The notes under the pieces are model-generated. The model saw only the letters and a program-made list of their open reading frames with translations, had not been told where the DNA came from and ran no database searches. A DNA stretch of 64,000 nt from Agromyces soli. GTDB taxonomy: Bacteria > Actinomycetota > Actinomycetes > Actinomycetales > Microbacteriaceae. Where the stretch lies: assembly GCF_022811605.1 (NCBI RefSeq), contig NZ_CP094533.1, forward strand, positions 930,001 to 994,000, written 5' to 3'. Shown in pieces: positions 35,957 through 53,547 of the stretch (position 1 is its first letter; the number at the start of each line of letters is the position of its first letter). A program made the position numbers and the translations under genes.

Positions 35957-36196
35957 ATGGCACGTGCGAAATCTTCGAAGCCCGCGAACGCGGAGCAGCC
36001 GAGCGGTGAAGAGGCCCCGAACCCCGTCTGGTTCAAGCCCGTCATGTTCGGCTTCATGCTGCTCGGACTGGCCTGGATCATCGTGTTCTACGTCTCCGGC
36101 GGGGCCTGGCCGATCGCCGACCTCGGTCCGTGGAACATCCTCATCGGCTTCGGCATCGCCTTCATCGGCTTCCTCATGACCACCCGCTGGCGCTGA
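35957..36196 (+). CDS. crgA: Cell division protein CrgA
   Basis: At 79 residues with two membrane helices (about 28-46 and 59-77) and the NPVWFKPVMFGFMLLGL-type first helix, this is CrgA. In actinobacteria it binds FtsZ, FtsQ and PBPs at the septum. A -10-like TAGAAT at 35944-35949 lies seven bases before the ATG, so the mRNA is probably leaderless. A strong terminator follows. Confidence 0.94.
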   Translation: MARAKSSKPANAEQPSGEEAPNPVWFKPVMFGFMLLGLAWIIVFYVSGGAWPIADLGPWNILIGFGIAFIGFLMTTRWR

Positions 36197-36270: not shown

Positions 36271-36436
36271 CTTTCCACAGCTCTCCACAGTGTTGTCCCC
36301 ATTTTCCACAGCCGCCTGTGGAATCTGGGGATAACCCCCTCGGCCCCGAGATTCCCGCGAATCCGGCACTCTGGAGCGTCGCGCGCTGAATCACACCCCT
36401 GTAATTCTCCCCAGTCTGTGGAGAGGGTGTGGATAA
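36271..36436. other. Cluster of DnaA-box-like 9-mers between crgA and rhomboid genes
   Basis: Eight 9-mers resembling TTWTCCACA lie in 166 bases. Plus strand: CTTTCCACA 36271-36279, CTCTCCACA 36281-36289, TTGTCCCCA 36293-36301, TTTTCCACA 36302-36310. Minus strand, read on plus: TGTGGAATC 36317-36325, TGGGGATAA 36326-36334, TGTGGAGAG 36417-36425, TGTGGATAA 36428-36436. The last is a perfect consensus. Neighbouring boxes are 9-12 bases apart, about one helix turn. No AT-rich unwinding region adjoins. DnaA binding is inferred. Confidence 0.7.
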
Positions 36437-36437
36437 C

Positions 36438-37292
36438 TCAGAAGGCGCCGATCTTCCAGCGGGCGACGAGGAAGCCGAGCACGAAGAGCACGACGACGAG
36501 GCCCGCGAGCAGGCCGATCTGCAGCCCTCGGCGCGAGCGGTCGCGCGTCTCGAGATAGATGAGCCCGACCAGCGCGCCGCCGATGAGCCCGCCGAGGTGC
36601 GCCTGCCACGAGATGTTCGCACCCGGCAGGAAGCCGATCGCGAGGTTGATCGCGAGCAGCACGTAGAGCTGGGTGAGGTTGCCGCCCAGCCGGCGCTGGA
36701 TGACGACGAAGGCGCCCATCAGGCCGAAGATCGCGCCCGATGCGCCGAGCACCCAGGTGAACGGGTCGGCGAACACGACGACACCGATCGAGCCGGCGAG
36801 GCCGGCGATCAGATAGAGCGCGAGGAAGCGCCAGCGGCCGAGCATCGACTCCAGCAGCTGGCCGAACAGCCACAGCGTGTACATGTTCAGCAGCACGTGC
36901 AGAATCGAGCCGTGCAGCAGCAGGCTCGTGAGCGCCCGCCACGGCTCGATCGACAGCACGAACGCCTGCGGCGTGAACGCGAACAGGTTCGTGAGCAGCG
37001 AGCCGGTGAGGAACTGCAGCAGGTAGACGACGAGCGTCACGCCGATGATCGAGTACGTGACGACCGGGGCGCCGCGGCCGGCGGCGCTGCGCATCCGGGT
37101 GAAGGCGGCCGGCTTCGTGCGCGGCGCCTGGGCGCGCTGCTCACGCATGCACTCGGGGCAGATCACCCCGACCGGCGCGGGGGTCTGGCACTCGCCGCAC
37201 ACGGTGCGGCCGCAGCGCTGGCACAGCACGTAGCTCCGCCGATCGGGATGCCGATAGCAGAAGTCCTCGCGGGACGGCGCGCCCTCGCTCAC
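36438..37292 (-). CDS. Rhomboid family intramembrane serine protease
   Basis: The 284-residue protein begins with a cytoplasmic zinc-ribbon-like region of Cys12, His15, Cys24, Cys27, Cys32, Cys35, Cys45 and Cys48. Six or more membrane helices follow. The catalytic pair is Ser185 in VLGASGAIFG and His232 in WQAHLGG, with LHVLLNMYTLWLFG (the HxxxN oxyanion region) before them. It cleaves membrane proteins inside the bilayer; substrates are unknown. The stop codon adjoins a perfect DnaA-box sequence. Confidence 0.93.
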   Translation of the reverse strand: MSEGAPSREDFCYRHPDRRSYVLCQRCGRTVCGECQTPAPVGVICPECMREQRAQAPRTKPAAFTRMRSAAGRGAPVVTYSIIGVTLVVYLLQFLTGSLLTNLFAFTPQAFVLSIEPWRALTSLLLHGSILHVLLNMYTLWLFGQLLESMLGRWRFLALYLIAGLAGSIGVVVFADPFTWVLGASGAIFGLMGAFVVIQRRLGGNLTQLYVLLAINLAIGFLPGANISWQAHLGGLIGGALVGLIYLETRDRSRRGLQIGLLAGLVVVLFVLGFLVARWKIGAF

Positions 37293-50099: not shown

Positions 50100-51251
50100 T
50101 CAGCGCAGCAGCAGGTTCGGCTGCAGCAGGTACCGGTAGCTGTCGCTGCCGGCCTGCTCGCGCGAGGTCTGGCTGGTGATGAGCACGGGCCCCGGCTTGT
50201 TCGGGTTCTCGGTCTTCGTGAACGAGACGCGCACGAACTCGGAGTGCACCGCGCCGAGGCCGTCGAGGAGGAACTGCGGCTTCAGCGACACGACGGTCTC
50301 GTCACCGGTGAGGATGGCGTCGATCGACTCGGAGGCCTGGGCCTGCTCGCTGCCGATCGCCTCGAGGGTGAGCCCGTCGGGCGTGAACGAGTAGCGGAGG
50401 GCGGCCTCGCGCTCGAGCACGAGGGCGACACGGCGGGTCGCCTCGATGAGCTCGGCGGTGTTCACCACGGCGTAGTTGTCGACGACCTCCGGGAAGAGCC
50501 GGCGCACGGGCGGGAAGTTGCCCTTGATGAGCAGGCTCGTGACGGTCTTCCTGTCGGCGCTGAAGGCGATGAGCTCGCGGTCGTCGCGGCTCGTGATCGA
50601 GACCGAGATCGTGCCGGAGTGGCCGAAGGTCTTGCCGACCTCCTGCAGGGTGCGGGCCGGGACGAGCGCGGTGAGCGCCTCCTCGGCGGTGGCGACGGAG
50701 CCGCCGTCCCAGTCGATCTCGCGCACGGCGACGCGGTAGCGGTCCGTCGCGACGAGGCCGAGGCTGTTCTCGCGGACTTCGAGCTGCACGCCCGTGATGA
50801 CCGGGGTGACGTCGTCGCGGGAGGCGGCGACGGCGACCTGCGCGACGGCGGCCGCGAACTCCTCGGCGGGGACGACGCCGGACTGGTCGCCGATCTCCGG
50901 GATGGAGGGGTACTCCTCGACCGGCATCGACAGCAGCGTGAAGCTCGCCGAGCCGCAGCTGACCTGGATGCGGTTCTCTTCGGTGGCGATGCGCACCGGG
51001 GCGTTCGGCAGCCGGCCGGCGATCTCGGCGAGGAGACGGCCGGAGACGAGCACGGTGCCCGGCTGCTCGACGTCGGCCTGGATCTCGGTCTGGCTGGAGA
51101 CCTCGTAATCGAAGGAGGAGAGGACGAGCCCGTCTTCGTTCGCCTGGATCAGGACGCCGGAGAGGATGGGCAGCGTCGTCCGCTGCGGGAGCAGCTTGAC
51201 CGCGAACGACACGGCCTCGCTGAAGACGTCGCGGTTGACCTGGAACTTCAC
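50100..51251 (-). CDS. dnaN: DNA polymerase III beta sliding clamp
   Basis: The 383-residue protein is a three-domain clamp, beginning [16 protein letters not shown] and containing [11 protein letters not shown] and the C-terminal region with [20 protein letters not shown] (parts [13 protein letters not shown]). It encircles DNA and tethers the polymerase. The start is GTG 51251 with AGGAGAGCC upstream; the frame continues further upstream without a ribosome site. It lies between the origin region and recF. Confidence 0.98.
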
Positions 51252-51693
51252 GGCTCTCCTGTCGTCATGGCGCGTGCTCCGCACGACCGTGCCCTCCCGC
51301 GTCGGTGGACGCGGGTTCCCATGCTATCGAGCGACCTTCGAGGCATCCACACCGTCAGGTTGTCGAATGCCCGTCGATGAACACTTAAGTCTCTTAACGG
51401 TGTTAACCGCTGTGGAAACTGTGGATGGTGTTCGGAGATCCGCGGAGTGATGCCGATCGGAGCCCATTCGATCTGTGCACACCGTGTGGGAATCGCCGAG
51501 GGGACACTGAACGGCGTGCAGGGACGAATTCGGGTTGTGCACAGGGCGAGCTCGCGTCTCAACAGCTGGGAGCCGGTTGCTCGTTAACAATCCACAGGCT
51601 TTCCACAATTGTGGGGAACGCCCCGAACGGCCCGCAGAACGGCGCCTGCGGGCGCCGCGAGGCATCCCTCGAACCCCTCGCGACGACCGGAAC
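51252..51693. other. Probable oriC, dnaA-dnaN intergenic region
   Basis: The 442-base gap holds imperfect DnaA boxes: GTTTCCACA (minus, 51411-51419), CCATCCACA (minus, 51420-51428), ATTCCCACA (minus, 51485-51493), TTGTGCACA (51535-51543), CAATCCACA (51588-51596), CTTTCCACA (51599-51607) and TTCCCCACA (minus, 51610-51618). An AT-richer stretch at 51380-51410 (CTTAAG, TTAACGG, GTTAACC) could be the unwinding element. Position, flanking genes and switch in gene direction are those of a typical actinobacterial origin. None of the boxes is a perfect TTATCCACA. Confidence 0.82.
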
Positions 51694-53112: not shown

Positions 53113-53547
53113 TGCTCCCCGCAATCTGCCGCGCTCGGCTGTGCGCCGTCGATCGAACGCATTCTCCGGTCCCCCTCCGGAGCGCGAAACGGCGCCAGGC
53201 GAATTGTTCACAATGTTGTCCACCGCCTGTGAGCAGATCGGCCGGAAACCCGATGATTCCGCGTTCGAGGCTGGGGATAACTGGTGACTCACGCTAGCGA
53301 ATGGATGTGCCGCCGACAAATGCCGCGAGCGGGATTCGACGCGCCTGGCGTGTCGATCCACAGCGCTCGCGCAGGATGGCGGGATACTGTGTGGTTCGAT
53401 CGCCGAAGGTCTCGGTCGTGGTCGGTTTGACCCCAGCGCGCCCAGGCCGTAGTTTTAATAGGTTGACCGCCGCCCTTTGGGCACCCAGTTTTCCCGTAGA
53501 CGCACCGTTGACGCGTCGCGAGGAGAGTCCGACAGCCGGAGAGAAGA
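53113..53547. promoter_or_regulatory. dnaA-rpmH divergent control region
   Basis: No gene is seen in this 435-base gap. On the plus strand TTGACC (53427-53432) and TAGTTT (53450-53455), 17 bases apart, are the likely rpmH promoter. DnaA-box-like sites TTGTCCACC (53216-53224), TTATCCCCA (minus, 53272-53280) and CGATCCACA (53354-53362) lie on the dnaA side and may autoregulate dnaA. An ATTGT-TC-ACAAT dyad is at 53203-53214. Confidence 0.65.

Follow-up and report, generated by a model that had tools for sequence, protein, structure and literature searches.

A 48-bp noncoding element downstream of the crgA gene of Agromyces soli joins three DnaA boxes to a palindrome that matches the published binding site of the mycobacterial regulator McdR, also called ResR (Rv1830). 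The best explanation, to which we assign a probability of roughly 0.5, is that this element is a site near the origin at which DnaA is controlled and McdR acts as the gate. Binding of both proteins is predicted from the sequence, and an effect on the initiation of replication is inferred.

The element lies within a 64,000-nt stretch of the A. soli genome (hereafter, the window) that corresponds to G000:C1:930001-994000 of the single 3.81-Mb contig (Table 1). There, crgA (+) and a rhomboid protease gene (−) are convergent, and the gap between them carries a hairpin followed by a cluster of DnaA boxes. The hairpin is probably the crgA terminator and, because it is symmetric, possibly serves both convergent genes. 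The cluster is about 15.3 kb from the 3′ end of dnaA, and we take the dnaN-dnaA gap to be oriC by analogy with known actinobacterial origins. The nearest named crgA loci to that of the window are from Agromyces mediolanus, with protein identities of 97% and 99%.

Table 1. Features of the A. soli window, in window coordinates.
Feature	Position	Strand	Basis or remark
crgA, cell division protein CrgA	35957-36196	+	Top NCBIfam matches are CrgA models, E 4e-20, under curated cut-offs
Perfect 16-bp inverted repeat, 4-nt loop	36218-36253		In the crgA-rhomboid gap
Part A, six DnaA boxes	36271-36334	+ at 36271, 36281, 36293, 36302; − at 36317, 36326	Box scan, locus comparison
Predicted McdR/ResR site AATCACACCCCTGTAATT, 18-bp palindrome	36389-36406		Fits published AATnACAnnnnTGTnATT exactly; discovered de novo
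DnaA box I TTCTCCCCA	36405-36413	+	Shares 2 bp with the predicted McdR site; fused pattern conserved
DnaA box II CTCTCCACA	36417-36425	−	Box scan
DnaA box III TTATCCACA, perfect	36428-36436	−	Box I to III 23 bp start to start; 1 bp off the rhomboid stop
Rhomboid family intramembrane serine protease	36438-37292	−	Top NCBIfam matches are rhomboid models, under curated cut-offs
dnaN	50100-51284	−	In window
dnaN-dnaA gap, presumed oriC	51285-51693		Context, outside the element
dnaA	51694 to ~53112	−	Start picked by eye from family match

The box cluster is genuine, with a density far above chance expectation. There are 23 matches to TTNTCCACA (≤1 mismatch) in the 64 kb, and eight of these are located inside the 166 bp from 36271 to 36436; the densest 170 bp in each of 60 windows simulated with a first-order Markov model held one box (38 runs), two (20), or three (2). 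An initial annotation had already described eight boxes in 166 bp, placed between convergent crgA and rhomboid genes some 15 kb from dnaA, and these counts and positions bear it out. Its statement that four boxes on one strand are followed by four on the other is incorrect: when boxes are scored with ≤2 mismatches to TTNTNCACA, the order is + + + + − −, then a 70-bp stretch, then + − −. This stretch contains one weak (+) match (2 mismatches) at 36387, within the palindrome. The only two perfect boxes of the window (TTTTCCACA at 36302 and TTATCCACA at 36428) both belong to the cluster, which offers better matches than the dnaA-dnaN gap, as had been proposed. Within the window perfect boxes are confined to the cluster, but in the genome perfect TTNTCCACA is not unique, with 17 occurrences versus 7 for the reversed control pattern. 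Three tandem TCCACA motifs at the spacing of the cluster have a single occurrence in the 3.81-Mb genome.

The cluster consists of two parts, a variable part A and a conserved core, part B (36389-36436). Part A is a variable Agromyces addition: both A. mediolanus loci (L002 and L003) have a similar version of it, and in other Agromyces it is rearranged or reduced. Gaps were compared by eye for 75 of 80 named crgA loci, mainly from Microbacteriaceae, with longer gaps cut to 300 nt; left out were two loci without a rhomboid match and three with a non-convergent rhomboid gene. In this comparison the left group of boxes changes rapidly and the right group tends to persist. In the recurrent core layout, a palindrome like AATTACACnnGTGTAATT passes without a break into TT(A/C)TCCCCA (+); next comes either a (−) box or the box-like TGTTAATAA, and finally TGTGGATAAC (−), which is frequently near the rhomboid stop.

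The 18-bp palindrome is the most informative feature of the core, and it was overlooked by the initial annotation; its recognition changes the likely mechanism. As described in the accessible part of PMC9040748, McdR is a MerR-family mycobacterial regulator that binds AATnACAnnnnTGTnATT at the whiB2 promoter and represses whiB2 in mycobacteria, and its effect is abolished by mutated half-sites or an altered spacer length. Because the palindrome discovered de novo fits published AATnACAnnnnTGTnATT exactly, the motif has been reached twice independently, and a link to whiB is common to both lines of evidence. With one genome examined per genus of the family, AATTACAnnnnTGTAATT (≤1 mismatch) was found in 59 of 60 genomes at 1-4 sites each, and the reversed AATTACAnnnnTGTAATT control was found in 3 of 60 rows. 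Of 30 palindrome loci examined, 21 adjoin a whiB2-like gene, 7 are at crgA/rhomboid, and 2 are at neither; the whiB2-like target of the palindrome in the A. soli genome encodes a protein with a WhiB domain. No obvious adjoining box was seen at two of the non-whiB2 palindromes (L242 and L246). The binding motif and a whiB2-type promoter target in Microbacteriaceae are held in common with the mycobacterial McdR/ResR regulon as it appears in the accessible parts of PMC9040748 and PMC10336103. The regulon targets reported there are promoters, whereas the window site is not at a promoter, lying where the two flanking genes end.

Two other regulators were considered as binders of the palindrome and set aside. 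The BldD box is TNAC(N)5GTNA, whereas the half-site spacing here is N6. The MtrA motif is a degenerate direct repeat, judging from the available portion of PMC6265350, whereas the site here is, by eye, an inverted repeat.

The A. soli genome has 11 MerR-domain matches. One candidate, G000:C1:3196526-3197077 (−), adjoins genes for an FHA (GarA-like) protein and a CDP-alcohol phosphatidyltransferase, which we take to be the neighborhood of Rv1830. Judged from its domain and gene neighborhood, this MerR protein is a likely McdR orthologue. NCBIfam gave no match under the name McdR, and a search of the PDB gave one weak match. Orthologues of the candidate are present in 379 of 394 class genomes (E ≤1e-12).

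Conservation of the boxes in relatives, on which the initial annotation had staked its proposal, is strong in the family and extends beyond it. In a sample of one genome per genus (59 crgA loci), the McdR motif (≤1 mismatch) follows crgA by no more than 1300 nt at 43 of 59 loci (reversed control 0/59), and at 35 of 59 it is fused to a DnaA box with the exact 2-bp overlap. The palindrome is absent at ≤2 mismatches from 13 of 59 family loci, some of which (for example, L163 and L208) still keep boxes. We describe the fused pattern as AATNACANNNNTGTNATTNTCCMCA, an McdR site sharing 2 bp with a DnaA box, and allow ≤1 mismatch. It is present in 59 of the 80 named crgA loci at this threshold and in 70 of 80 at ≤2 mismatches (reversed control 0/80). 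These loci contain 72 sites at ≤1 mismatch, 63 of which are within the crgA-rhomboid gap; the other nine, at most ~140 bp downstream of crgA, are in loci for which no convergent rhomboid gene was matched. The fused site extends to 159 of the 396 genomes sampled in the order, spread over 40 of 109 genera, and to 87 of 394 genomes (33 of 137 genera) across the class, where the two samples have genomes in common and the counts carry shared phylogeny. The reversed fused control was zero in every order and class row shown.

Within the class sample, the fused site was found in 0 of 39 genomes of a family inferred to be Streptomyces-like (f5) and in 2 of 35 genomes of a family that is possibly Mycobacteriaceae, again by inference (f6). 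Because McdR orthologues occur in 379 of 394 genomes and the strict fused site in only 87 of 394, the presence of McdR does not predict the fused site, and the near-universal distribution of the regulator makes its co-occurrence with the element uninformative. An earlier strict core pattern was too narrow, matching only 9 of 396 phylum genomes; at four of these nine loci (L107-L110), no crgA, rhomboid, or whiB2 gene was found.

The fused palindrome bears directly on whether the core could be a pure DnaA titration cluster at which the McdR site is incidental or merely tunes occupancy. Models for such clusters reportedly include D78 of Streptomyces coelicolor and clusters of Bacillus subtilis. 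The additional, fast-changing boxes of part A do resemble a sink, and two Streptomyces-like genomes (G023 and G161, loci L233 and L234) carry a box trio in the crgA-rhomboid gap without an McdR palindrome; the trio is inverted relative to that of Microbacteriaceae, and of 11 f5 genomes these are the 2 that fitted the earlier strict core pattern. However, a palindrome with a fixed 2-bp overlap has been kept across families, which titration by boxes alone would not need, and we regard this explanation as unlikely.

The genomic locations of fused sites speak to a different alternative, in which the fused site lets McdR and DnaA regulate the genes around it, with the copy between crgA and rhomboid controlling or separating their convergent transcription as a roadblock. 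We inspected 79 fused loci, including the window's own (L301). This non-random sample comprised 30 loci from the order, 29 from the class, and 20 regions hand-picked from the class matches, mostly in families not seen before. A crgA and/or rhomboid match is present at 67 of 79, where a match means a tblastn hit within the same 3-kb locus and not always the exact gap. Five loci are upstream of or adjoining nrdR or a class II ribonucleotide reductase gene (L316, L318, L320, L337, and L343), and two from family f2 are between rpmH and dnaA, in the dnaA upstream region (L314 and L315). The remainder include one locus at whiB2 (L306), one in a glycoside hydrolase-sulfatase gap (L290), and three without identification (L317, L319, and L321). 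Given the five nrdR/ribonucleotide reductase loci and the two dnaA loci, the fused site, when away from crgA, tends toward replication genes. Its position upstream of nrdR and dnaA also indicates that it can be a promoter site; this, and the fact that crgA is a division gene, favor a transcriptional role. Against such a role for the crgA-rhomboid copy, the window site lies at the 3′ end of each gene and follows the crgA hairpin, and L073, L076, and L079 keep the site downstream of crgA even though the rhomboid gene is non-convergent. A transcriptional site therefore seems rather improbable. In a separate genome (G446; L237 and L238), two more copies of the palindrome with DnaA boxes are located 13-17 kb past crgA.

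The geometry of the element was measured in 193 distinct fused elements, which are related sequences and not independent samples. A (−) box starts 20-26 bp from box I in 163 of 193 elements, and 140 of the box matches start at 22 or 23 bp; a middle (−) box at 9-13 bp is recognizable 84 times, and any (+) box within 30 bp occurs in only 32 elements. Boxes II and III are both recognizable at 1 mismatch in 82 elements, among which the spacing is 9-12 bp for I-II, 11-13 bp for II-III (12 bp in 58), and 20-24 bp for I-III (23 bp in 46). The upstream 60 nt of 192 elements hold a (+) box in 84 cases and a (−) box in 45, indicating that boxes are also present on the far side of the palindrome, and individual loci (L051, L073, L076, and L079) carry boxes on both flanks.

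This arrangement invites comparison with Escherichia coli, in which we take the bioD-uvrB gap to be DARS1 and the rppH-mutH gap to be DARS2. The MG1655 bioD-uvrB gap contains the trio TTATCCACT-5-TGTGGATAA-3-TGTGTATTA. The rppH-mutH gap contains two trios of the same + − − layout (L172:636-670 and 952-986), namely TTATTCACC-5-TGTGGATAG-3-TGTGAAGAA and TTATCCCAG-5-TGTGGATAA-3-GGTGTAAGA; either may be the DARS2 core, and our comparison covers both. Like DARS1 and DARS2, the window core is noncoding and away from oriC, and box I faces box II while box III is oriented as II, exactly as in DARS1 and both trios of the DARS2 region. The II-III start-to-start distance is 12 bp in E. coli DARS, 11 bp in the window, and 12 bp in most of the relatives' elements noted above. 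In contrast, the I-II distance is 14 bp in E. coli DARS versus 12 bp in the window and 9-12 bp in relatives. Because the + − − orientation is expected by chance in approximately one of four trios, we call the core DARS-like in layout rather than DARS; the likeness is one of layout, and sequence homology is not claimed.

According to the available portions of PMC10380432 and PMC8682772, the DARS core has boxes I-III with I and II head-to-head and is where ADP leaves DnaA, DARS2 carries partner-protein sites for IHF/Fis, and datA is a group of DnaA boxes that includes a site for a partner protein and is near oriC in the cell. The datA partner is IHF, and datA stimulates DnaA-ATP hydrolysis; the partner in the window would act at the predicted McdR site. 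The suggestion in the initial annotation of a control site similar to datA or DARS was thus broadly right as to the kind of element, with a core orientation that equals that of DARS1, but the I-II spacing differs and the McdR site had been missed.

Facing boxes also raise the prospect of an RNA element in the 3′ UTR of the rhomboid gene. The minus strand does fold well (z −4.7, with an energy better than 200 of 200 shuffles), but stems of this kind follow simply from DnaA boxes that face each other. In 69 of 163 elements, pairing is possible between the variable base of box I and its partner in the (−) box at 20-26 bp, versus 67.0 expected from shuffling; for palindrome positions 4 and 15, complementarity is seen in 119 of 193 elements versus 112.1 expected. 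We discarded RNA structure on finding that boxes I and III do not covary at their variable positions, and an RNA element is very improbable.

It is similarly far-fetched that the cluster is the true chromosome origin or a second one. This idea draws on a local minimum in cumulative GC skew near 32-40 kb of the window and on boxes that are better than those of the dnaA-dnaN gap. However, over 400 kb the GC skew proved uninformative, with deeper minima elsewhere and a signal set mainly by the strand of the genes: of 40 bin values for third-position skew on the coding strand, 39 are negative regardless of gene orientation. Moreover, the gap lacks an AT-rich unwinding stretch, with a GC content of 62% and a best 20-mer of only 12 AT, which is the palindrome itself. 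An identity as oriC was rejected given this lack and the 15-kb distance from dnaA/dnaN. The initial annotation had argued from the same lack of an AT-rich element that the cluster is not an origin, and we concur on both counts.

Gating of a DnaA-control site by McdR is the reading that we favor over these alternatives. It starts from features that are legible in the DNA, including the boxes, the palindrome, the 2-bp overlap, a conserved geometry, recurrence at replication genes, and a likely McdR orthologue. The core would be a bipartite DNA site, with McdR on the palindrome and DnaA on the three adjoining boxes, where the two proteins may bind side by side or compete. In the manner of datA or DARS, DnaA collecting on the boxes might be titrated or undergo a change of nucleotide state that inactivates or reactivates it. 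The timing of this event could be set by McdR, the site of which overlaps box I. McdR would then act both on division (via whiB2) and on initiation (via the core site). In the accessible part of PMC9040748, overexpression of McdR in Mycobacterium smegmatis is described as repressing whiB2 and raising the copy number of ori-proximal DNA. The latter effect fits a role in initiation, and a DNA site coupling McdR to DnaA would suggest a mechanism for it. However, because the fused site is found in only 2 of 35 f6 genomes and 0 of 39 f5 genomes, the effect in M. smegmatis may have another cause.

A broader proposal, which we offer tentatively and consider somewhat doubtful, is that many Actinomycetes possess an origin-linked DnaA switch gated by McdR/ResR, such that one checkpoint protein would set initiation, dNTP supply, and division (through whiB2). 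This proposal encompasses the fused site near the origin and, in some lineages, the copies at nrdR/ribonucleotide reductase genes or dnaA.

To our knowledge, DnaA control in actinobacteria and the coupling of initiation to division are largely open problems, and DnaA boxes fused in conserved form to an McdR site are new. DnaA-box clusters near origins are already known, and MtrA, in the portion of PMC6265350 available, is an example of a division regulator acting at the origin of an actinobacterium. We found nothing in open-licence texts linking McdR/ResR with DnaA boxes: the term DnaA is absent from the main texts of PMC9040748 and PMC10336103, and oriC and crgA are absent from the main text of the latter. 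In the accessible part of PMC3937824, a count of DnaA boxes at oriC and a reference to CrgA stand apart, and in that of PMC6265350 both terms appear in separate reference-list entries. McdR/ResR has been linked to drug resilience in tuberculosis (PMC9040748 and PMC10336103, accessible parts), and the broader switch proposed above, if true, would provide one route from McdR/ResR changes to altered growth. It would also constitute a DARS/datA-like system outside the proteobacteria that is distinct from MtrA at oriC.

MtrA is likewise a division-linked actinobacterial regulator, which binds origin DNA of Mycobacterium tuberculosis and affects replication (accessible part of PMC6265350), and as one known link between initiation and division it makes the conserved 48-bp site a testable second link. 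The two differ in that MtrA belongs to the response regulators and has a direct repeat as its motif (same source), whereas the window site is an McdR-type inverted repeat; MtrA acts at oriC itself, whereas the window site is 15 kb away.

Origin regions of these genomes yielded several further observations. No McdR motif was found at ≤1 mismatch in the dnaA-dnaN gap of 30 dnaN loci, drawn from 60 genomes searched. A reduced genome of 1.4 Mb (G400) has an McdR-like palindrome upstream of dnaN (L117), and its crgA gap (L225) is without boxes or palindrome. Within the window, the box-like sequences TTGTTCACA, TTGTCCACC, and TTATCCCCA at 53204-53280 overlap or are just upstream of the dnaA start region.

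S. coelicolor is said to have three origin-centered DnaA-box clusters, H69, H24, and D78 (Smulczyk-Krawczyszyn et al., 2006), with loss of D78 reportedly raising initiation. These and the window cluster are alike in being DnaA-box clusters around the origin of an actinobacterium, whereas no fused McdR palindrome was seen among the 39 Streptomyces-like genomes listed. In A. soli, a second DnaA-box cluster was observed outside the window at G000:C1 ~1002820-1003035 (L094:2820-3035), ~20 kb on the opposite side of dnaA and between rplI and dnaB, both genes being confirmed by Pfam. It holds TTGTCCACA, TTGTCCCCA, and TTATCCACA together with a half-palindrome-like sequence, and includes two of the 17 perfect boxes of the genome, 57 bp apart. 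The crgA-rhomboid gap, the dnaA-dnaN gap, and the rplI-dnaB cluster make three places around the origin, an arrangement resembling the three clusters described for S. coelicolor.
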